Assembly (NCBI GenBank): GCA_026396705.1
Contig: JAPLWE010000040.1
Location: 1-32,051 of the forward strand
Source of the DNA: Candidatus Gribaldobacteria bacterium
GTDB taxonomy: Bacteria > Patescibacteriota > Minisyncoccia > Minisyncoccales > CG1-02-41-26
Direction of reading: 5' to 3'
Length of the DNA stretch: 32,051 nucleotides
Shown: positions 4,343 through 25,639 of the stretch, one piece after another
How the letters are laid out: the number at the start of each line of letters is the position of its first letter
How positions within the stretch are numbered: the first letter of the stretch is position 1
Program-made: the position numbers and the translations under genes
Notes under the pieces: model-generated
The model's database searches: none
What the model saw: only the letters and a program-made list of their open reading frames with translations
What the model was told of the DNA's origin: nothing

Positions 4343-4411
4343 AATAATTTGTTTAATTTTTATCCACAAAATTGATCCTTGTTTCTTAAATTTTGTGTTA
4401 AAATTAATTTA

Positions 4412-7114
4412 ATGAAAATAAGAATATTTATTTTAATAATTCTGGCCACCTTTTTTTGTCTGATTAATGCTGGTAGCGTTTTGGCGACCTGGGATGGAAA
4501 CCCTTATGATGCTGGCGAAACCCTAAACCCAGAATGTACTCCAACCGATCCTTTATGCAATGTTTTGATTCCAAACTATTGGAAACTCTCGGGCAATAAT
4601 TTATCGGTCACCTCAACTAGTTATTTAGTGGGTATTGGCACAACTACTCCAGCTTATAGATTAACTGTGCAGGCGGTTAGTAGTTCTACGCCAGCTTTTG
4701 TTTTATTAAACGAAAATGGATCGGTTGGCTCAATCCAGATGCGAACTGGGGGGATTGGTTTAAATAATATTTTTATTGGCGCTAATTCTGGCCAATATAA
4801 TTTAAGCACAGATTTTTTAACCGGGCATAATAATACATCTTTGGGTTATCAAGCTTTGGCTGCTAATACAACGGGTTATGGTAATACAGCCATGGGGTTT
4901 CAATCTTTATATACTAATCCTGATGGATATCAAAATACAGCTTTTGGCCAATATGCTATGCGTGGCAATACTAGTGGTTTCAGCAATACGGCTGTTGGCC
5001 ATAATGCTATGGCTTATGGCACAACTGGTACTTTGAATACGGCTGTGGGGGTAGATGCTTTAAGCGATGTGAATACCGGTAGTTATAATACTGCTATTGG
5101 CGCTGACACTTTGTATTACAATACTTCTGGCAAACACAATACAGCTCTTGGTAGTGGAGCCTTATTGAAAAATACTATTGGTAACTATAACATTGCTACG
5201 GGTAGAGCTGCTTTAGAAATGAATGTCTCTGGCTCCAGCAATACCGCCAATGGTTATTACTCTCTCTTTGGCAATACAGTTGGGGTGTCTAACTCTGGTT
5301 TTGGGCGCGCTACACTTTTTAATCAAAGTACTGGTTCTTTCAATGTGGCTATGGGTGAGGGTGCTGGTTATGGAGTTAGTGGCGCTTCTGTTTTTTCAAG
5401 TAGCACGCTTGTGGGTTATCAAGCGGGCTATGGCTTAACTACTGGAAATGGTAATGTTTTGCTTGGTTATCAGGCAGGATATACTGTGTCCGCTGGCGGA
5501 TTAAATACTTTTATTGGCTATCAGGCTGGGGCAAGCACAACGGTATCTAGTAGTGGTAATGGATTTTTTGGAAACAGCGCCGGTTTTGCAAGTAATGGTG
5601 ATAGCAATTACTTTATTGGGGAAAATTCAGGATATAACAACATTGGTAATAATAATTATTTTATTGGCAATTCGGGCGTAGGCTACAATAATATTGGAGA
5701 TGATAATTATTTGATTGGCGACGCGGCTGGTTGGATGAACTCAGGGAGTGATATATATGCTTTCGGCAATTCAGCGGCTTGGTTAAATACTGGTGGCAAT
5801 AGCTATATTATCGGAGATGCCGCTGGCTTTAACAATGCAGGCAATGACACCTACCTTTTCGGAGATGCTACTGGCTACAATAACACAGGAAATGATAGTT
5901 ATTTGATTGGCGACGCTGCTGGTTATAATAACACAGGAGCTAATAATTATTTTATTGGAAGCCACGCTGGTTATAATAACGCCACAGGAAGTTCTAATTA
6001 TTTTTTTGGCGATGTTGCTGGATATGCAAATACAGGAAATAATAATTACATGATAGGTAATCTTGCTGGGTATAGCAACGATGGAAGCTATAATTATATA
6101 TTTGGCACTAGCGCTGGGTATAACAACGCAGGAGATCGTAATATTATTTTCGGAGAGAATGTTGGGTATAATAATACAGGAGATTATAATATATTAATTG
6201 GTAGGCAAAATGGCTATGACAATACTGGGGACTACAATGTTTTTATTGGTATTGATGCTGGATACACAAACACTTCTGGGGCTGACAATTTATTTTTGGG
6301 CTATAACGCTGGATATTCAAACGCCACTGGCTCAAGGAATGTATTCTTGGGATATGAAGCTGGTTACAATGAAATAGGAGATAATAGGCTTTATATATCC
6401 AATAGTTCTACAACTCTGCCTTTAATTTATGGTGTTTTTTCAACCACTAGCACAGCAAGTAGCACTATAACTTTTAATGGAAAGGTGGGTATTGGAAATT
6501 CCAACCCAACTCATTTACTTACTATGGAGGCTGTTGGTGGGGGTTATTACGATGAAAATGCCAATACTTGGGTGGATGCATCTTCTATTAGATGGAAAGA
6601 AAATATAAAGCCAATTGAGAATGCTTTAGACAAAGTTTTGAGTCTGCAAGGAGTAACCTATGATTGGAAAAAAGAATATGGTAATAAGCATAGTCTTGGT
6701 TTTATTGCTGAAGATGTTGGCAAGATTGTGCCCGAGGTTGTTAGCTGGAGCTCAACTGAACCGGGTTATGCAGATGGTATATCCTATGGAGAGTTAACAG
6801 CTTTACTGGTTCAAGCAATAAAAGAGCAACAAGTAAAGATTACGGATGATTTTAATTATTTAAGTGGGAAAATAGATGGAGAGGTCTCTGCGGTTAAAGA
6901 ATTTTTTGTAGAAAAAATTACTGCTATGGTTGGTGATTTTAAGAAAATAAAAACTGATTCTATGGAAATGAAAGACGCCTCAACCGGTGAAATATATTGC
7001 GTTACTATTGAAAATGGAGAATGGAAAAAAGTTAAAGGCGAATGTTTAGCGCAAACAACGGATACTTTAGGGGTTGAGCCACAAATTGAAGAAGAAGCTC
7101 CTGTTATTAATTAA
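4412..7114 (+). CDS. Large secreted repeat protein (beta-roll/adhesin or fibre-like) with C-terminal S74-type intramolecular chaperone domain
   Basis: Signal peptide MKIRIFILIILATFFCLINAGSVLA; NTAxGxxAL and NYxIGDxAGYNNT repeats; C-terminal SSIRWKENIKPIENALDKVLSLQGVTYDWKKE...HSLGFIAEDVGKIVPEVV (Peptidase_S74-like). Start at 4412 preferred over 4379. Confidence 0.85.
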   Translation: MKIRIFILIILATFFCLINAGSVLATWDGNPYDAGETLNPECTPTDPLCNVLIPNYWKLSGNNLSVTSTSYLVGIGTTTPAYRLTVQAVSSSTPAFVLLNENGSVGSIQMRTGGIGLNNIFIGANSGQYNLSTDFLTGHNNTSLGYQALAANTTGYGNTAMGFQSLYTNPDGYQNTAFGQYAMRGNTSGFSNTAVGHNAMAYGTTGTLNTAVGVDALSDVNTGSYNTAIGADTLYYNTSGKHNTALGSGALLKNTIGNYNIATGRAALEMNVSGSSNTANGYYSLFGNTVGVSNSGFGRATLFNQSTGSFNVAMGEGAGYGVSGASVFSSSTLVGYQAGYGLTTGNGNVLLGYQAGYTVSAGGLNTFIGYQAGASTTVSSSGNGFFGNSAGFASNGDSNYFIGENSGYNNIGNNNYFIGNSGVGYNNIGDDNYLIGDAAGWMNSGSDIYAFGNSAAWLNTGGNSYIIGDAAGFNNAGNDTYLFGDATGYNNTGNDSYLIGDAAGYNNTGANNYFIGSHAGYNNATGSSNYFFGDVAGYANTGNNNYMIGNLAGYSNDGSYNYIFGTSAGYNNAGDRNIIFGENVGYNNTGDYNILIGRQNGYDNTGDYNVFIGIDAGYTNTSGADNLFLGYNAGYSNATGSRNVFLGYEAGYNEIGDNRLYISNSSTTLPLIYGVFSTTSTASSTITFNGKVGIGNSNPTHLLTMEAVGGGYYDENANTWVDASSIRWKENIKPIENALDKVLSLQGVTYDWKKEYGNKHSLGFIAEDVGKIVPEVVSWSSTEPGYADGISYGELTALLVQAIKEQQVKITDDFNYLSGKIDGEVSAVKEFFVEKITAMVGDFKKIKTDSMEMKDASTGEIYCVTIENGEWKKVKGECLAQTTDTLGVEPQIEEEAPVIN
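4874..5332 (+). repeat. Nine tandem 17-aa (51-bp) coding repeats, consensus GxxNTAxGxxALxxNTx
   Basis: Nine consecutive 17-residue units counted from the translation (GYGNTAMGFQSLYTNPD ... GVSNSGFGRATLFNQST). Confidence 0.9.
5597..6376 (+). repeat. Sixteen tandem 16-aa (48-bp) coding repeats, consensus GxxNYxIGDxAGYNNT; four units are 17 aa
   Basis: Sixteen consecutive units counted from the translation (GDSNYFIGENSGYNNI ... GSRNVFLGYEAGYNEI). Confidence 0.9.
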
Positions 7115-13868: not shown

Positions 13869-14756
13869 TTAGCGCGATAGCGCGTAAGTGTTTCCTCCTA
13901 AATTTTTTACTTGGCCTTCTGTTTCCATTGAGCATAAAGCAGTTGATACGGCTGATGAAGTAAGGCCGGTTATTTCTATTATGCCATCAATAGACATAGC
14001 CTTATTTTTTAAGGCATTGATAATTTGTTGTTCTTCATTGTTTTGGCCCTGATAATCTAAGATATTGGGCAAGGTATTGGCTGACAGACTCAAGCCAGCC
14101 AGAATGTCATTATAATTCTCTACCAGAAGCGCTTCTTGTTTAATCAACCAATGGCAGCCTTGTGAGCTAGCCGAAGTAACTGGTCCGGGCACGGCCATAA
14201 TTTTTCTTTTTTGTTGTTTAGCCCATTTAGCGGTGAGCAAAGCGCCTGATTTTATTTTAGCTTCAACCACTACTACGCCCAACGATAACCCTGAAATTAT
14301 ACGGTTTCTTTGGGGAAAAGTAAAATGAGCGCCTTGGGTGCCTGCTGGATATTCGGAAATTAAACAACCACCTTTTTCTAAAATTGTTTTAGCTAATTTT
14401 AAGTTTTCCTGCGGGTAAAAGCTTTGTTCGTCTAGTCCTGTGCCCAACACAGCGATGGTTGGGCTATTAGCCTCAAGCGCGCCTTGATGCGCCCAACTAT
14501 CAATGCCTCTGGCTAGCCCAGAAACAATAGTTAAACCAGCTCGACTTGAATTTATAGCCAAGCTCAAAGCTATTTCTTTGCCATAGCTACTAGCCAACCT
14601 AGCCCCCACTATGGCCAAGCATTTTTCCTGGCCTGTTAAAAAATTGCCTCTAAAATATAAGGTTTTGGGGCAGTCAGAAATTTTTTTTAATAAAGTAGGA
14701 TAAGCCCCATCAGAGCTTTCAATTTTTTGAATTGGCCAATTTTCTAAATAAAGCAT
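13869..14756 (-). CDS. dprA: DNA processing protein DprA/Smf
   Basis: GARLASSYGKEIA, SGLARGIDSWAHQGAL, AVLGTGLDEQSFYPQEN, SEYPAGTQGAHFTFPQRNRIISGLS. Confidence 0.93.
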   Translation of the reverse strand: MLYLENWPIQKIESSDGAYPTLLKKISDCPKTLYFRGNFLTGQEKCLAIVGARLASSYGKEIALSLAINSSRAGLTIVSGLARGIDSWAHQGALEANSPTIAVLGTGLDEQSFYPQENLKLAKTILEKGGCLISEYPAGTQGAHFTFPQRNRIISGLSLGVVVVEAKIKSGALLTAKWAKQQKRKIMAVPGPVTSASSQGCHWLIKQEALLVENYNDILAGLSLSANTLPNILDYQGQNNEEQQIINALKNKAMSIDGIIEITGLTSSAVSTALCSMETEGQVKNLGGNTYALSR

Positions 14757-14806: not shown

Positions 14807-14834
14807 TTGAGTTTTTTCATATTTGGAGTAATCT
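14807..14834 (+). promoter_or_regulatory. Candidate promoter TTGAGT-N16-TAATCT upstream of small ORF cassette
   Basis: Near-consensus -35/-10 with 16-nt spacer in the divergent intergenic region. Confidence 0.4.
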
Positions 14835-14881
14835 TGGTATTGCATCGCAGATTAAAAAACTAATAAAAGGATGTGATTAAA

Positions 14882-15028
14882 ATGAAAAAGCTTGCAGAGT
14901 ATTGGATCGGATTTTCCAGTTTTGGCTTGGGATTTGTAATCGGTGCCTTAAGATCATCTGAGCATAGCCTTGTTTTTTTTGTTACTTGGTGGTGTGATTT
15001 TCTTTTTTGGAGTTTTTCTATTTTTTAA
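14882..15028 (+). CDS. Small membrane protein (48 aa as read; possible frameshift at a T8 tract, alternative end 15065)
   Basis: AAAGGATGTGA SD-like site upstream; MKKLAEYWIGFSSFGLGFVIGALRSSEHSLVFF... Confidence 0.45.
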   Translation: MKKLAEYWIGFSSFGLGFVIGALRSSEHSLVFFVTWWCDFLFWSFSIF

Positions 15029-15081
15029 AAATAGAAAAAAAGAGATACATCACAATACATTATAAAGAGGGGGCGGAGCAA

Positions 15082-15180
15082 ATGAAGTGGCTGAAAAAAT
15101 ACTGGCCAGCGCTGGTTCTTTTGGTGCTGGTTATTGTAATAAAGATCGTATGGCATTCTTATTGTTCTCCTTATCTATAA
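15082..15180 (+). CDS. Tiny single-TM protein (32 aa)
   Basis: MKWLKKYWPALVLLVLVIVIKIVWHSYCSPYL with a purine-rich site (GAGGGGGCGGAG) upstream; resembles the next ORF. Confidence 0.5.
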   Translation: MKWLKKYWPALVLLVLVIVIKIVWHSYCSPYL

Positions 15181-15215
15181 GATGCTACAAAAAAACGTCT
15201 AAGGAGGTGGGATAA

Positions 15216-15308
15216 ATGAAAAAATGGTTGAAGAAGCATTGGCCGGAAGTGTCTACTATTTTGGCTATAATCATTATAGCGATTCTTGTGCAGTATTTTT
15301 TCTCATAG
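15216..15308 (+). CDS. Tiny single-TM protein (30 aa), similar to 15082-15180
   Basis: MKKWLKKHWPEVSTILAIIIIAILVQYFFS with AAGGAGGTG SD 8 nt upstream of ATG. Confidence 0.55.
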   Translation: MKKWLKKHWPEVSTILAIIIIAILVQYFFS

Positions 15309-15321
15309 AAAAAATGCAAAG

Positions 15322-15360
15322 ACCGTCCAAGGAGGTAAAAACTTGTGGACGGTTTTTTTA
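15322..15360 (+). terminator. Rho-independent terminator after small ORF cassette
   Basis: ACCGTCCA ... TGGACGGT followed by TTTTTT. Confidence 0.75.
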
Positions 15361-15392
15361 TTGTTTTAATATTTGTGATATAATGTAAAAAT

Positions 15393-17424: not shown

Positions 17425-18756
17425 ATGCCATATCTTGCCAAAACTGATCCTCAAATAGCCAATATTATTAAAGCTGAAGAAAAACGCCAAGCGCAAACTT
17501 TAATGATGATTCCTTCAGAAAATCACACTTCGCAAGCTGTGCGGGAAGTGGTCGGCTCTTTATTGCAAGATAAGTATTGCGAGGGCTACCCTTTTAAGCG
17601 TTATTATCAGGGGCAAGAAAACTACGATAAGATAGAAGAGTTGTGCCGAGAGAGAGTTAGAAAGTGTTTTGGTGTGCCTTATTGCAATGTTCAAGCTTTG
17701 TCGGGTTCACCCGCTAACTTGGCGGTGTATTTTGCTTTGTTGAAGCCCGGCGATAAAATTATGGGCTTGGCTATGGATCAAGGCGGGCACATTACTCACG
17801 GCTTGAAAGTTAATGTTTCAGGCACTTTTTTTGATAGTGTTTTTTACTATGTTAATGAGCAAGGACTGATTGATTATGACGCCCTTGAAGAAATTGCCTT
17901 AAAAGAAAAACCAAAAATACTGATTGCCGGCATCACTGCCTATCCTTTGGCTTTGGATTTTAAGCGATTTTCGCAAATCGCTGAAAAATGTGGCGCTTTA
18001 TTGATGGCTGATATGTCGCATGTGGCGGGATTAATTTTAGCTAAAGTTTATCCCGATCCAATGCCTTATTGCCATATTATCACTGCCACTACTCACAAAA
18101 CATTGCGAGGGCCACGGGGCGCTTTAATTATGGTTACTGACAAAGGATTAAAAGCTGATCAGCAAATGGGCGACAAAATTGACAAAGCTGTTTTCCCGGG
18201 CTTGCAGGGCGGCCCGCACGAAAATAATATTGCGGGCATTGCGGTGGCCTTAAAAGAAGCGCAAAAGCCATCATTTATTAAATATGGCCAGCAAGTAATT
18301 AAAAATGCCGCTTATTTGGCTGAATGCTTGAAAAAGAGCGGGCTTAAGCTTTGCGCTGGCGGCACCAACACTCATTTGCTGGTAATTGATTTGCAAGAAT
18401 TTAAGATTTCGGGTAATTTAATTGCTGAAGCCTTAGAGCAAGGCGGCATTGTGGCCAACCGCAACGCCGTGCCTTACGATCCCAACCCGCCGTTTTATCC
18501 TTCAGGCATTCGTTTGGGCACCCCAGCCATCACCAGTAGGGGCATGAAAGAAAAAGAAATGAAATTTATCGCTGGCCTGATAGTTGAAATTATTGATGAT
18601 ATTGTTAAGATTAAAAAAAATCTTCAGCTTGGCTTGGAAGATGAGAAAAAGAAAGACACTCGTAATAAAATTATCGCTCAAAGTTTGGTAGTGAAAAAAT
18701 CCAGCCAAAAAGTGAAACAGCTTTGCCTCAAATTTCCTTTGCCTAAAAGTTATTAA
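17425..18756 (+). CDS. glyA: Serine hydroxymethyltransferase
   Basis: IPSENHTSQAVREVVGS, YCEGYPFKRYYQGQENYDKIE, VQALSGSPANLAVY, TATTHKTLRGPRGALI (PLP lysine), FPGLQGGPH. Confidence 0.97.
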   Translation: MPYLAKTDPQIANIIKAEEKRQAQTLMMIPSENHTSQAVREVVGSLLQDKYCEGYPFKRYYQGQENYDKIEELCRERVRKCFGVPYCNVQALSGSPANLAVYFALLKPGDKIMGLAMDQGGHITHGLKVNVSGTFFDSVFYYVNEQGLIDYDALEEIALKEKPKILIAGITAYPLALDFKRFSQIAEKCGALLMADMSHVAGLILAKVYPDPMPYCHIITATTHKTLRGPRGALIMVTDKGLKADQQMGDKIDKAVFPGLQGGPHENNIAGIAVALKEAQKPSFIKYGQQVIKNAAYLAECLKKSGLKLCAGGTNTHLLVIDLQEFKISGNLIAEALEQGGIVANRNAVPYDPNPPFYPSGIRLGTPAITSRGMKEKEMKFIAGLIVEIIDDIVKIKKNLQLGLEDEKKKDTRNKIIAQSLVVKKSSQKVKQLCLKFPLPKSY

Positions 18757-20439: not shown

Positions 20440-20835
20440 GTGGAACAATCAATCAGGCAGATTATTGGAGAAATTGAGGGCGACCCGAGCTTTATCGCAA
20501 AATTTATTGAGCCCCTCTATCAATCAACTTGTCTTGAGGATCGATATTTTAAGTTGGTTGAGTTGTTGCCTCATAGCTTGTATTGGGATCCGTTTAAGGC
20601 CAGACAATTTATTTTTTATCTGGCTAGCAATTACGGATTGAACTTTGGTGTTTGTGTCTATTATCAGATAGATATGGACGAAGATGGCCGTCAATACTGT
20701 GATATTGATGGTGAAAAAGTGGAATGCCTTTGCGTTATTCCGCAAGGCAGATGTGTCATAAGACAAAAGAAAACGTTCATTCTAGAAGCGGTATCTAGGA
20801 TAAAACAGGAGGAAAGAGAATGCCAAGATCAATAG
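20440..20835 (+). CDS. Hypothetical protein, GTG start
   Basis: GGAAGGAGGTGAG SD positioned for GTG at 20440 (alternative GTG at 20431). Confidence 0.6.
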   Translation: MEQSIRQIIGEIEGDPSFIAKFIEPLYQSTCLEDRYFKLVELLPHSLYWDPFKARQFIFYLASNYGLNFGVCVYYQIDMDEDGRQYCDIDGEKVECLCVIPQGRCVIRQKKTFILEAVSRIKQEERECQDQ

Positions 20836-21026
20836 AAAAAGGAAAAAACAGGATAAAGGCGGTTAATCTCCCGGGCGTGCCGGGAATTTATCTGAGGGTT
20901 GTTGTTCCAAAAGAACCGCCCCCACCTCCGCCACCAAAACCAGAGCCACCTAAACCAAAACAGAAACCCGAGCCAGTTCGGGAGGCGTCAATGTCTCGAC
21001 CAAGGAGAAATTGGTGGGACCTTTAA
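20820..21026 (+). CDS. Small proline-rich, basic hypothetical protein
   Basis: SD AGGAGG upstream of ATG; MPRSIEKGKNRIKAVNLPGVPGIYLRVVVPKEPPPPPPPKPEPPKPKQKPEPV...; overlaps the previous gene by 16 nt. Confidence 0.6.
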   Translation: MPRSIEKGKNRIKAVNLPGVPGIYLRVVVPKEPPPPPPPKPEPPKPKQKPEPVREASMSRPRRNWWDL

Positions 21027-21138: not shown

Positions 21139-21591
21139 ATGAAGAAGATTTTGTTGATTAAAGCTGGGTTAGTAATAGCAGGCTTGCTGATAACAGCTGG
21201 GCTAATTGGCTATTTTGTAATTTTTCATAATCAGAAAGCCAAGGTTTGTTTTAATGACTTTTGCTGGCAAGCGGAGGTAGCCAATAATCGCTTTACTATT
21301 GCCAAGGGGTTGATGTTCCGTAAAAATCTGATGGAAAATGAAGCTATGCTGTTTATTCTGCCGTATGAGGGGAGTCATTCTTTTTGGATGAAAAACACTT
21401 TAATTCCTTTGGATATTATTTTTCTTGATAAAGATAAGAAAGTGGTAGGCATTGCTAAAGATGCCCAGCCTTGCCTAAGCGATAAATGCCCAAGCTATCG
21501 CAATCAACAGCCTGCCCGATATGTTTTAGAAATTAAGGCTGGCCTATCTGATAAAATTGATTTGGGTATAGGCAGTGAATTGCAATTTTAA
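21139..21591 (+). CDS. DUF192 family protein, membrane-anchored
   Basis: N-terminal TM; KGLMFRKNLMENEAMLFILPYEGSHSFWMKNTLIPLDIIFLDKDKKVVGIAKDAQPC is the DUF192 core. Confidence 0.88.
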   Translation: MKKILLIKAGLVIAGLLITAGLIGYFVIFHNQKAKVCFNDFCWQAEVANNRFTIAKGLMFRKNLMENEAMLFILPYEGSHSFWMKNTLIPLDIIFLDKDKKVVGIAKDAQPCLSDKCPSYRNQQPARYVLEIKAGLSDKIDLGIGSELQF

Positions 21592-21592
21592 T

Positions 21593-24500
21593 ATGGCCAA
21601 AAACTTAAACAATTTAAATAAAGAGCAAAGAGAAGCGGTTTTATTTGGCAGCGGGCCTTTGTTGATTGTGGCTGGGGCGGGCACTGGTAAAACCACAGTG
21701 ATTACCGAGAGGATTGCTGGTTTGATTGAACAAGGATTAGCCAAGCCCGAAGAAATTTTAGCTGTCACTTTCACGGAAAAAGCCGCCGCGGAAATGGAAG
21801 ACCGAGTAGATCGGCTTTTGCCTTTTGGCTATCACGAGCTTTGGATATCAACTTTTCACGCTTTTTGCGAAAGGGTTTTGCGGGAAAACGGCTTGGATAT
21901 TGGCCTGCCCACCAACTTTAAGCTGATTGACACAACAGCGGCTTGGCTTTTAGTGAGGCAAAACTTAGATAAGTTTGCTTTGAATTATTATCGGCCATTG
22001 GGCAATCCGCTAAAATTTATTCACGCTTTGCTCTCTCATTTTTCTCGTTGCAAAGATCAAATGATTTATCCACCAGATTATCTGAAATACGCTGACGAGC
22101 TAAAATCAAACTTAACCGATTTGCCCGAGGGCGCCGAGGTCGAGCGCGTTAAAGAAATAGCTGGCGCTTACCATACTTATCAAAAGATTTTGCTGGACAA
22201 CAGTTTGCTGGATTTTGGCGACCTGATTAACTATTGTTTGCAACTTTTCCAAAAGCGGCCGGCCATTTTAGAAAAATACCGGGCTCGTTTTAAGTATATT
22301 TTGGTGGACGAATTTCAAGACACCAACTGGGCGCAATATGAGCTAATCAAAATTTTAGCCGCACCCAAAAACAATCTGGCTGTCTGCGCCGACGATGACC
22401 AATGTTTGCCGGGTAATGCTCTGGTTGCTGTTAGAGATGGCGAAAAAGAAATTAGAGCCATCAAAAAAGGGGAGGAAGTTTTAACAGCCGTGGGTAAGGG
22501 GCATATTGGTGTCAGCCATGTCAATAAAGTATTCAAGCGGCAGAAGAAAGCGCGTTTGCTAACTATCAAAACCAAAAGTGGCCTTCAGGTTCAGGCTACG
22601 GACAATCACAAGATGTTTTGTTTTGTGCCTCAAGTCCATAAAAATCATCAGTATTGTTATGTTTATTTAATGCATCGACAAGGATTGGGTTGGAGGATGG
22701 GTACTACTAATGATTTAATTAGCAGAACGAGATTGGAGCGTTCGGTTGATAAGATTTTGGCGGTGAAAGCGTTCAAAACAGAAATTGAGGCTCGCTATTA
22801 TGAAACATTGTGGTCGTTGAAATATGGAATCCCAACCAGTTGTTTCCAGGCGAGAGAAAATATTGTTATTCAAGGTGATTTATTAATAAAGCTGTATCAA
22901 GATTTAGCCGTTGAAAATAATGCGCAAAGAATGGCTAAGGATTTGAATATTGATTTAGATTCGCATCATTTTTGCTTGGAAGCGGTGACGCGAGGCAATA
23001 AAATTAGGATTAAGATTAACCTGCGTATGTGCCATCGCAACTATCGTAGCAAAGATCATATTAGGATAAAGAAAGAATTACTTTTAAATCCTTTGATAAA
23101 ACATTATTTAAGCATTGAGACTTCAGATTCAAACACTATATCTAAGCTGACAAAGGCAGGTTTTCATCTTAAAAAGGCCAAAAAGGGCATGGTGCTGAAA
23201 CTAGAACATCAGGATTTGCAAGAGTTGGGCAAAATAGTTCAACATTTACAGAAATTAACTGGCGGGATTGTTGAAATAAAGTTTAATCTGGCTTTAAAAA
23301 ATTCTTTGACAGGAAATGAAAACAGACAACGAAGTTTTCCAGCTATTTTGATGCCGGCTAAAAATTTGGTTTTAGGCCATTATCTACCCATTAAGGCAGG
23401 CCGTGAAATTATTTATGACGAAATCGTTGATATTAGAGAAGAGGAAAAGAATATAATTGTTTATGATTTAGAAATAGACAAAACTCATAACTTTTTCGCC
23501 AATGGGGTAGTGGTGCATAATTCCATTTATAAATTTCGCGGGGCTTCGGTGAGCAATATTACCCAGTTTAAGCAGGATTTTCCTAAGGTTAAAGAAATCT
23601 TTTTGGTGAAAAATTATCGCTCCAGCCAGAATATTTTAGATTTGGCTTATAATTTTATTCAGGCCAACAATCCCAATCGCTTAGAGTTCATTTCAGGCAT
23701 TAACAAAAAGCTCATCGCGCAAAAAGAAGCCTCTGGCATAGTGGAGCATTTGCATTTCAAAACATTGGGTGGCGAGACCTCGGGGGTTGTTCAGAAAATC
23801 GCGCAAATTTTACAAAAAAATAAAGATGTTGGTTTTAATGATTTTGCTGTTTTAGCCAGATCCAACGACACCGCCAACTCTTTCGCGCGCGCTTTTGAAA
23901 GAGCTAACTTGCCTTATCAGTTTTTAGCTTCGCAAGGCCTTTATTTCAAGCCAGTGATTATGGACATCATTGCTTACTTGAAACTGCTGGATAATTATCA
24001 TGAAAGCTCGGCGATGTTTCGCGTGTTAAGCTGGCCATCATGGCAGATATCGCCTGATGACTTGATGCGTTTGACGCATTTCAGCCACCAAAAAGCCCAG
24101 TCGCTTTTTGAGACGGTTTCTAGCTTTGCCTTAGTCAAAGGGCTTACTCCCAAAACCGCTTCCAGCCTGAATAGTTTTTTGGCTTTGATTAAAAAGCATA
24201 CAGCTTTATCTAGGGATAAAAATATCTCGGAAATTTTTATTGCTTTGCTGGAGGACTCAGGCTACTTGAAAAAATTAACCACCACTGAAAACAGGGAGGA
24301 GCTAGATTACTTGGCGCAGTTTTATAAAAGAATCAAAGATTTCGAACAGGCCAATCCTGACAGCTCGCTTAAAAATTTTATGGCCCAGCTTAATTTGGAG
24401 CTGGAGTCAGACGAGCAAGGCAAGCTGGCCTTTGATCCGGATCAAGGTCCGGACTTAATTAAAATAATGACCATTCACGGAGCTAAGGGCTTGGAGTTTA

Positions 24501-25639
24501 AGTATGTCTTTATGGGCGGTATGGTTGACCGTCGGTTTCCTTCAAGCGAGCGCAATGACCCCATTGAAATACCAGCCCAGTTAATTAAAGAGAAACTGCC
24601 CGAGGGTGATATGCACTTGCAAGAAGAGCGACGGCTTTGTTATGTGGCCATTACTCGTGCCAAACAAGGATTATTTTTTACATCAGCTGACGATTACGGG
24701 GGGCTAAGAAAAAAGAAAATTTCTTTGTTTTTAACGGAAATGGGTTTTGGTCAGCTAAAATATTTTGCCAAAAGCGGATCGGCTGGTTTTATTGAGCCCA
24801 AAATTAAAATCAAAAAGAAAGCGCCAGTTGTTATTCTGCCCGAGCACTTTTCTTACACTCAATTAGCCGCTTTTGACACTTGCCCTTATCAGTATAAATT
24901 AGCGCATATTTTGAAAGTGCCAGTGCGGGGCAGGCCATCGTTTACTTTTGGCCGAGCTATGCACAACACGCTTTATGAATTTTTACAAACACTTAATCAA
25001 GTTAATTCTAAAAAACAAAACAATCTTTTTGGCGCGACGAATTCGGCCAAGCCACCAGCCATAGCCATTAGCGAGGCCGAACTGCTCAAAATTTACGAAA
25101 GCCAATGGCTTAACGAGTGGTTTGATAGCAAAAAACAAGAGCAGGATTATTATCAAGCGGGCAAGAAAATGTTAAAAGATTTTTACCAAAATTTTTCTAA
25201 AGAACAGCCCCAAATTTTCCAATATCAAGGCCAGCCAGCCTTAGAAGTTGAGTTTAAGCTAAAAATAAAAGACATCACCTTGAAAGGTAAAATTGATCGT
25301 ATCGATCAGGTGGCGGGCGGGGTTCGTTTGCTGGACTACAAAACGGGAGAGAGCAAAGAAAAAATAACCAAAGAAAACAAAATCCAGCTTTTGCTTTATC
25401 AAATAGCCGCCGAAGAATCTTTAGGATTAAAACCAGTAGAGCTTGGCTATTATTATCTTAGCGAGGGAGAAATGATTTCGTTTTTGGGCGCTGAAAAAGA
25501 AAAAGATGATCTTAAGGTAAAAATCATTGAACAAGTTGAACAAATCAAAACCAGCGACTTCACCGCCAAACCCGGCTGGCATTGCCAGTTCTGCGACTTC
25601 AAAAGCATCTGCGAATTCGCCAGCAAAAATAATGGTTGA
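21593..25639 (+). CDS. UvrD/Rep-family helicase fused to a C-terminal RecB/AddB-like PD-(D/E)XK nuclease, interrupted by an intein
   Basis: LNKEQREAVLFGSGPLLIVAGAGTGKTTVITERI, VTFTEKAAAEM, DEFQDTN, CADDDQ^...^SIYKFRGASV, KNYRSSQNI, MTIHGAKGLEFKYVF, LCYVAITRAKQ; C-terminal EVEFKLKIKDITLKGKIDRID..LLDYKTGE and Cys set DTCPYQYK..WHCQFCDFKSICEF. Confidence 0.93.
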   Translation: MAKNLNNLNKEQREAVLFGSGPLLIVAGAGTGKTTVITERIAGLIEQGLAKPEEILAVTFTEKAAAEMEDRVDRLLPFGYHELWISTFHAFCERVLRENGLDIGLPTNFKLIDTTAAWLLVRQNLDKFALNYYRPLGNPLKFIHALLSHFSRCKDQMIYPPDYLKYADELKSNLTDLPEGAEVERVKEIAGAYHTYQKILLDNSLLDFGDLINYCLQLFQKRPAILEKYRARFKYILVDEFQDTNWAQYELIKILAAPKNNLAVCADDDQCLPGNALVAVRDGEKEIRAIKKGEEVLTAVGKGHIGVSHVNKVFKRQKKARLLTIKTKSGLQVQATDNHKMFCFVPQVHKNHQYCYVYLMHRQGLGWRMGTTNDLISRTRLERSVDKILAVKAFKTEIEARYYETLWSLKYGIPTSCFQARENIVIQGDLLIKLYQDLAVENNAQRMAKDLNIDLDSHHFCLEAVTRGNKIRIKINLRMCHRNYRSKDHIRIKKELLLNPLIKHYLSIETSDSNTISKLTKAGFHLKKAKKGMVLKLEHQDLQELGKIVQHLQKLTGGIVEIKFNLALKNSLTGNENRQRSFPAILMPAKNLVLGHYLPIKAGREIIYDEIVDIREEEKNIIVYDLEIDKTHNFFANGVVVHNSIYKFRGASVSNITQFKQDFPKVKEIFLVKNYRSSQNILDLAYNFIQANNPNRLEFISGINKKLIAQKEASGIVEHLHFKTLGGETSGVVQKIAQILQKNKDVGFNDFAVLARSNDTANSFARAFERANLPYQFLASQGLYFKPVIMDIIAYLKLLDNYHESSAMFRVLSWPSWQISPDDLMRLTHFSHQKAQSLFETVSSFALVKGLTPKTASSLNSFLALIKKHTALSRDKNISEIFIALLEDSGYLKKLTTTENREELDYLAQFYKRIKDFEQANPDSSLKNFMAQLNLELESDEQGKLAFDPDQGPDLIKIMTIHGAKGLEFKYVFMGGMVDRRFPSSERNDPIEIPAQLIKEKLPEGDMHLQEERRLCYVAITRAKQGLFFTSADDYGGLRKKKISLFLTEMGFGQLKYFAKSGSAGFIEPKIKIKKKAPVVILPEHFSYTQLAAFDTCPYQYKLAHILKVPVRGRPSFTFGRAMHNTLYEFLQTLNQVNSKKQNNLFGATNSAKPPAIAISEAELLKIYESQWLNEWFDSKKQEQDYYQAGKKMLKDFYQNFSKEQPQIFQYQGQPALEVEFKLKIKDITLKGKIDRIDQVAGGVRLLDYKTGESKEKITKENKIQLLLYQIAAEESLGLKPVELGYYYLSEGEMISFLGAEKEKDDLKVKIIEQVEQIKTSDFTAKPGWHCQFCDFKSICEFASKNNG
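22403..23521 (+). mobile_element. Intein (about 373 aa) with a GIY-YIG-like homing endonuclease insert
   Basis: Starts C-LPGNALVAVRDGEKEIRAIKKGEEVL with block-B-like QATDNHKMF; ends NIIVYDLEIDKTHNFFANGVVVHN followed by Ser+1. Joining exteins restores DDDQSIYKFRGA. Insert carries YVYLMHRQGLGWRMGTTNDLISRTRLE...TEIEARYYETLW. Confidence 0.93.

Follow-up and report, generated by a model that had tools for sequence, protein, structure and literature searches.

The window analyzed here, the whole 32,051-nucleotide stretch, carries between dprA and glyA a cassette of three very small ORFs, followed by a terminator and two orphan ORFs (Table 1). The three ORFs (48, 32, and 30 aa) follow one another exactly where the first-pass annotation had placed them, and the terminator that it assigned to the cassette is likewise confirmed at 15317 to 15360. 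This terminator folds at -20.6 kcal/mol (z = -3.8 against shuffles) and reaches z = -5.4 together with the adjacent hairpin at the end of ORF3; a consensus scanner missed it because it takes only loops of 3 to 8 nt. The composition of the cassette is not distinct, and a promoter scan of both strands of the region gave 2 sites versus 4.2 expected, hence no excess. Elsewhere, the window encodes a 911-aa repetitive protein with a C-terminal Peptidase_S74 domain (endosialidase chaperone), known from phage tail spikes (4379 to 7114), and a UvrD-like helicase with a PD-(D/E)XK nuclease domain that an intein interrupts (21575 to 25639; Pfam Intein_splicing, E = 3.9e-19).

Table 1. Features of the cassette and its neighbors (window positions). 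SD energies, in kcal/mol, describe pairing of the leader with a canonical anti-SD, which the host 16S tail does not carry.
Feature	Position	Strand	Remarks
dprA	13869-14756	-	Core neighbor, divergent; no SD (-0.6); Pfam DNA_processg_A, E = 1.4e-72
Possible weak promoter	14807-14834	+	TTGAGT, 16 nt, TAATCT; read from the sequence, below promoter-scan threshold
SD of ORF1	14867-14878	+	AAGGATGTGATT; -11.3
ORF1	14882-15028	+	48 aa as found, probably a truncated reading; hydropathy 1.65
T8 homopolymer	14973-14980	+	Loss of one T puts ORF1 in frame with the reading that stops at 15065
SD of ORF2	15068-15078	+	AGGGGGCGGAG; -12.5
ORF2	15082-15180	+	32 aa, single hydrophobic helix, MKWLKKYWPALVLLVLVIVIKIVWHSYCSPYL; paralogue of ORF3
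CTCCTTA near the end of ORF2	15163-15169	+	Complementary to TAAGGAG in the ORF3 leader; paired in MFE folds
SD of ORF3	15201-15209	+	AAGGAGGTG; -16.1, strongest scored in the window
ORF3	15216-15308	+	30 aa, single hydrophobic helix, MKKWLKKHWPEVSTILAIIIIAILVQYFFS
First hairpin, end of ORF3	15293-15317	+	Fold prediction
Intrinsic terminator	15317-15360	+	Stem ACCGTCC/GGACGGT lengthened by A-U pairs; loop with AAGGAGGT; T run
Orphan ORF, 523 aa	15393-16964	+	Hydrophobic, signal-like N terminus; canonical SD absent (-3.5)
Orphan ORF, 148 aa	16966-17412	+	Second member of the downstream block
glyA	17425-18756	+	Core neighbor on the far side; homologue directly neighbors dprA in G002

A frameshift at the T8 tract has probably truncated the 48-aa reading of ORF1. 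The frame that ORF1 would join also appears as a separate ORF in the ORF list (14970 to 15065). The joined reading, MKKLAEYWIGFSSFGLGFVIGALRSSEHSLVFLLLGGVIFFFGVFLFFKNRKKEIHHNTL, has 60 aa, including two hydrophobic stretches and, at the C terminus, a basic tail, and it stops at 15065, 16 nt before ORF2 and just ahead of the ORF2 SD. An open frame of 31 codons, by our own estimate, arises by chance in such DNA with a probability of about 0.1 (roughly 10%) and is weak evidence alone. Assembly error, decay, and slippage are all possible causes of the frameshift. Farther along, within the second half of ORF1, lies a perfect A/T inverted repeat of 13 bp around a 1-nt center (15013 to 15039).

ORF2 and ORF3 reach hydropathies of 2.31 and 2.37, respectively, over 19 residues and have the N terminus M-K-(K)-W-L-K-K-[YH]-W-P in common. 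In a whole-genome search, the ORF3 query matched ORF2 at E = 0.002 and the reverse query at 0.0015. Five of the six codons that differ within the motif do so silently (AAG/AAA, CTG/TTG, AAA/AAG, AAA/AAG, and CCA/CCG), TAC/CAT being the one nonsilent difference, which argues for selection on the protein sequence after duplication. The mutual matches and the silent differences thus support the duplication that had been proposed from the shared start. The same cannot be said of a decayed fourth copy in the terminator loop: AAGGAGGT matches the ORF3 leader at 16 of 19 nt, but 8 of these are the SD itself, and no similar peptide follows, the loop SD being succeeded only by an 8-codon TTG frame. A fourth copy is therefore not supported.

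The strong SD site claimed for each of the three ORFs holds up, and the cassette's leaders are in fact the strongest among the scored start sites of the window, most larger genes lying above -5 kcal/mol. In 22 kb of intergenic DNA within 117 kb of the host genome, ATG-started ORFs of 25 to 100 aa with an SD of -9 or below number 6, versus 1.0 +/- 0.9 in dinucleotide shuffles, and the cassette supplies 3 of the 6. The proposal that these are protein-coding small membrane ORFs is supported, and such controls place the three ORFs well beyond chance. Among relatives, 99 kb of intergenic DNA from unselected loci yielded 10 small SD-led ORFs (-11 or below), none with a transmembrane stretch, so such cassettes are not common. 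A further strong SD in the window, CAGGAGGAAAGAGA, precedes a proline-rich 68-aa ORF (20820 to 21026) that overlaps the end of an orphan 134-aa ORF.

The most important context, invisible from the window sequence alone, is that the host lacks the anti-SD. The only 16S gene found in the host genome (G000, 94.8% complete; locus L075, G000:C36:3678-5161) has the 3' tail GGATCATTTCTATTAC / GGATCATTTCTATTACATTTTT and ends in ...GGTGGATCATTTCTATTACATTTTT, with no CCTCC. Every 16S tail that could be read in the order lacks CCTCC as well (11 of 11 genomes, host included; L075 and L076 to L102), and none of these tails holds a complement to AGGAGG. The SDs of the cassette thus find no complement in the 16S 3' tail of their host. 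Accordingly, SD use before core genes exceeds the control marginally at best. In the 117 kb that, with genome pattern searches, underlie the host statistics, an SD of -9 or below precedes 4.2% of 96 long ORFs versus 2.6% of control positions; for relatives, the values are 4.2% of 189 and 2.1%. Loss of CCUCC is known in the CPR lineages Ca. Campbellbacteria, Wolfebacteria, and Absconditabacteria (PMC10783764), and organisms without an anti-SD are generally also without SDs (PMC6107228, 128 taxids). With each SD strong while the host ribosome lacks a matching sequence, the cassette looks imported or else translated by an unexplained route.

The surroundings point to a lineage-specific block. In G002, a genome of the same genus, dprA and glyA are divergent neighbors with 101 nt between them; here they lie 2.67 kb apart, separated by the cassette and the 523-aa and 148-aa ORFs, and the block is therefore lineage specific. 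Its absence from relatives and the adjacency of its flanks in G002 are what a horizontally acquired block would leave, although the sister may instead have lost it. In G001, the second sister genome (84% complete), dprA had no match. Across the family, dprA has other neighbors and no small-ORF cassette; at the dprA locus of G141 (L023), there is one SD-led 141-aa membrane ORF. A search of genome contigs with DprA as bait returned one distant locus only. Searches with ORF3 across 246 genomes of the order, with ORF2 across 384 genomes of the class, and with ORF1 across 380 genomes of the phylum yielded no homologue, and the phage, plasmid, and IMG/VR collections gave no credible homologue of the cassette proteins; weak candidates proved to be unrelated coding frames or contained stops. 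None of the 23 other genomes of the family contains the 523-aa ORF, which has no family match in Pfam, NCBIfam, or PHROGs; a link to viral elements through this ORF was sought and not found. Likewise, no donor matched, and no integrase or transposase was recognized in the flanking ORFs. The first-pass annotation had suggested judging the genes by whether relatives conserve the ORFs or only the DNA. The ORFs are indeed absent from the relatives, but the DNA is absent too, so that this comparison does not discriminate.

Orphan status and the frameshift at the T8 tract might suggest chance ORFs or a misassembled foreign fragment. We regard this as highly improbable given the shuffle controls, the silent codon differences between ORF2 and ORF3, and the terminator at the end of the cassette. 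Moreover, both flanks belong to the host lineage, dprA being 59% identical to that of same-genus G002 and glyA having a homologue there. The cassette is a real, lineage-specific set of SD-led membrane microprotein genes; its anatomy is ordinary, and its host is unusual.

The cassette is not the only place where the host carries near-canonical SDs. The pattern AAGGAGG-N3-9-ATG, to which the ORF3 site belongs, occurs 24 times in the genome versus 3 times for the reversed control, and about 13 of the 24 sites lie at real ORF starts, mostly of small orphans between SD-less genes. Strong SDs are limited to islands made up of orphan or extra genes. One such gene encodes a second, divergent IF-1 with the SD AAAAAGGAGGTG (L137; L200:4507-4731, G000:C31:18509-18730), present alongside the normal IF-1 on contig C13; relatives' IF-1 genes with a readable start have no SD (best, -6.4). 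Contiguous islands with an SD before almost every gene, amid mostly SD-less genes, were found in the host (G000:C39) and in other genomes of the order (G119:C42, G062:C26, and G007:C31); these long islands were chosen for SD hits or a weak match, so their number is no measure of frequency. The island of G119:C42 (L197:4094-12777) encodes a MoxR-type ATPase of MoxR-vWA-beta-propeller ternary systems, two large proteins that match nothing in Pfam, and a 63-aa two-helix membrane protein, and has SD-less core flanks. The island of G062:C26 (L198:6671-11588) encodes, in a row of SD-led genes, five secreted-looking proteins, and clear similarity links some of the five.

Many SD islands in some genomes of the order could mean a native class of SD-bearing genes instead of imports. 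In that case, the order would keep canonical SDs on small or accessory genes and recognize the purine-rich leader by another component, such as a ribosomal protein, a different part of the rRNA, or a variant initiation factor; the cassette would then belong to this class and be under normal regulation. Consistent with this, SD-led islands with mostly SD-less flanks recur in several genomes, and counts of the AAGGAGG-type pattern across 119 genomes of the order range from control level to nine-fold or more, the largest excesses including 63 versus 7 and 51 versus 6. The extra IF-1 of the host is itself SD-led. However, many genomes are at control level, core genes show at most the marginal excess given above, the IF-1 that carries the SD is not the family's own but an additional, divergent copy, and the 16S tail offers no complement to AGGAGG. 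On balance, we consider a native class rather unlikely. A still more doubtful extension is that an order without anti-SD maintains these islands, some of them consisting of small membrane-protein genes, as an SD-marked "second translation class" with non-16S recognition, of which the cassette would be a minimal example.

As to function, the first-pass annotation had likened the peptides to type I toxins, bacteriocins, or membrane regulators. Short hydrophobic helices with Lys/Trp-rich N termini in a paralogous pair would fit such peptides, and a small hydrophobic single-helix peptide is indeed what a type I toxin-antitoxin system would contain. Yet there is no match over cutoff to any family in Pfam, NCBIfam, or PHROGs, no homologues were found, and Rfam gave no antisense or regulatory RNA family at gathering score. 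The one minus-strand promoter-like site in the cassette region is within chance, in line with the lack of promoter excess on either strand. Immunity or export genes were not recognized nearby, the neighbors being dprA, two orphan ORFs, and then glyA. Furthermore, each of the three ORFs has a strong SD, in contrast to the tight repression of type I toxins. Apart from size and hydrophobicity, nothing speaks for a toxin role, and that of a regulator is unsupported as well. We therefore think a toxin or bacteriocin function improbable.

Conceivably, the ORFs might instead be leader peptides of the downstream 523-aa gene, with the hairpin at 15317 to 15360 acting as a regulated terminator. The geometry would allow this, since about 9 nt separate the terminator from the stop codon of ORF3 and another 30 nt or so separate it from the next gene, and Rfam returned a Phe leader match (26.9 bits, E = 0.037), although one far below the gathering score of 55. 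However, a TATAAT that the 523-aa gene has to itself, read by eye, lies about 7 nt upstream of its ATG, a position that suggests a leaderless start. The folds contain a single stable terminator and no competing antiterminator, and three ORFs with separate SDs and the make-up of membrane proteins are not leader-like. Attenuation is thus also a poor candidate, about as improbable as a toxin function. A different kind of coupling is possible within the cassette, where CTCCTTA near the end of ORF2 can pair with TAAGGAG in the ORF3 leader and might link translation of the two ORFs. We offer this as a suggestion only; locally, the pairing is not stronger than in shuffles (z = -0.3 to -1.95).

Taken together, we slightly favor the view that the cassette is an imported, SD-led operon for small membrane proteins in a host without anti-SD. 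Since no donor sequence was found, import is argued from the SD anomaly and the absence in relatives. The stretch from 14860 to 15366 would be a self-contained, terminator-ended operon, probably one transcription unit, for what were originally three membrane-anchored microproteins. ORF1 would specify a two-helix protein of about 60 aa that is now probably frameshifted in the assembly or strain. ORF2 and ORF3 would yield paralogous single-helix peptides with the basic, Trp-rich N terminus KWLKK[YH]WP, predicted to lie at the inner-membrane interface with the N terminus inside. The source was most likely a bacterium with canonical SD initiation, or its mobile element, and the landing site would have been the dprA-glyA gap of a host, of the CPR/Patescibacteria type as judged by gene content and genome size, whose ribosome had lost the anti-SD. 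If translated there, the ORFs might start without SD pairing, perhaps with coupling from ORF2 to ORF3. Our best guess is a putative role in a small membrane-associated accessory complex.

If SDs in this order mark imports, they provide a sequence-level label of recent gene transfer into ultrasmall bacteria and show what these bacteria acquire, in the present case microproteins and an additional IF-1. Should the SDs work in the host, initiation without an anti-SD would need a new recognition route. The occurrence of SD islands and SD-less core genes in one genome makes for a clean test, and both possibilities are directly testable.

Type I toxins and other single-helix bacterial microproteins have a similar size, a single hydrophobic helix, and a basic N terminus. 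The cassette differs from type I toxins in that it matches no sequence family, that no antisense RNA was found, and that three genes form one terminated unit. Among the islands found, G007:C31 (L201:10126-12256), from the same order, is the most like the cassette: five small hydrophobic proteins (93, 78, 87, 56, and 93 aa) are encoded in tandem, their genes fill a gap bounded by SD-less core genes, and the SD of each of the five is about -11 kcal/mol; the 16S tail of G007 is not among the readable ones. Hairpin-plus-T terminators recur between these genes, which, unlike those of the cassette, have separate terminators and apparently separate promoters. Their SD is mostly GGAGGTAG, and there is no convincing sequence similarity to the cassette. 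SD-scarce organisms (PMC10783764; PMC6107228) resemble the host in lacking CCUCC and in having core genes without SDs. Whereas organisms without an anti-SD generally have no SDs (PMC6107228), a minority of island genes in the host bear near-perfect ones. Finally, flavobacterial rpsU (PMC9976891) is reminiscent of the cassette in that a particular gene carries a strong SD in an otherwise non-SD lineage; the host, however, has lost the anti-SD, while in the Flavobacteria it is present and sequestered in a pocket of bS21, bS18, and bS6.
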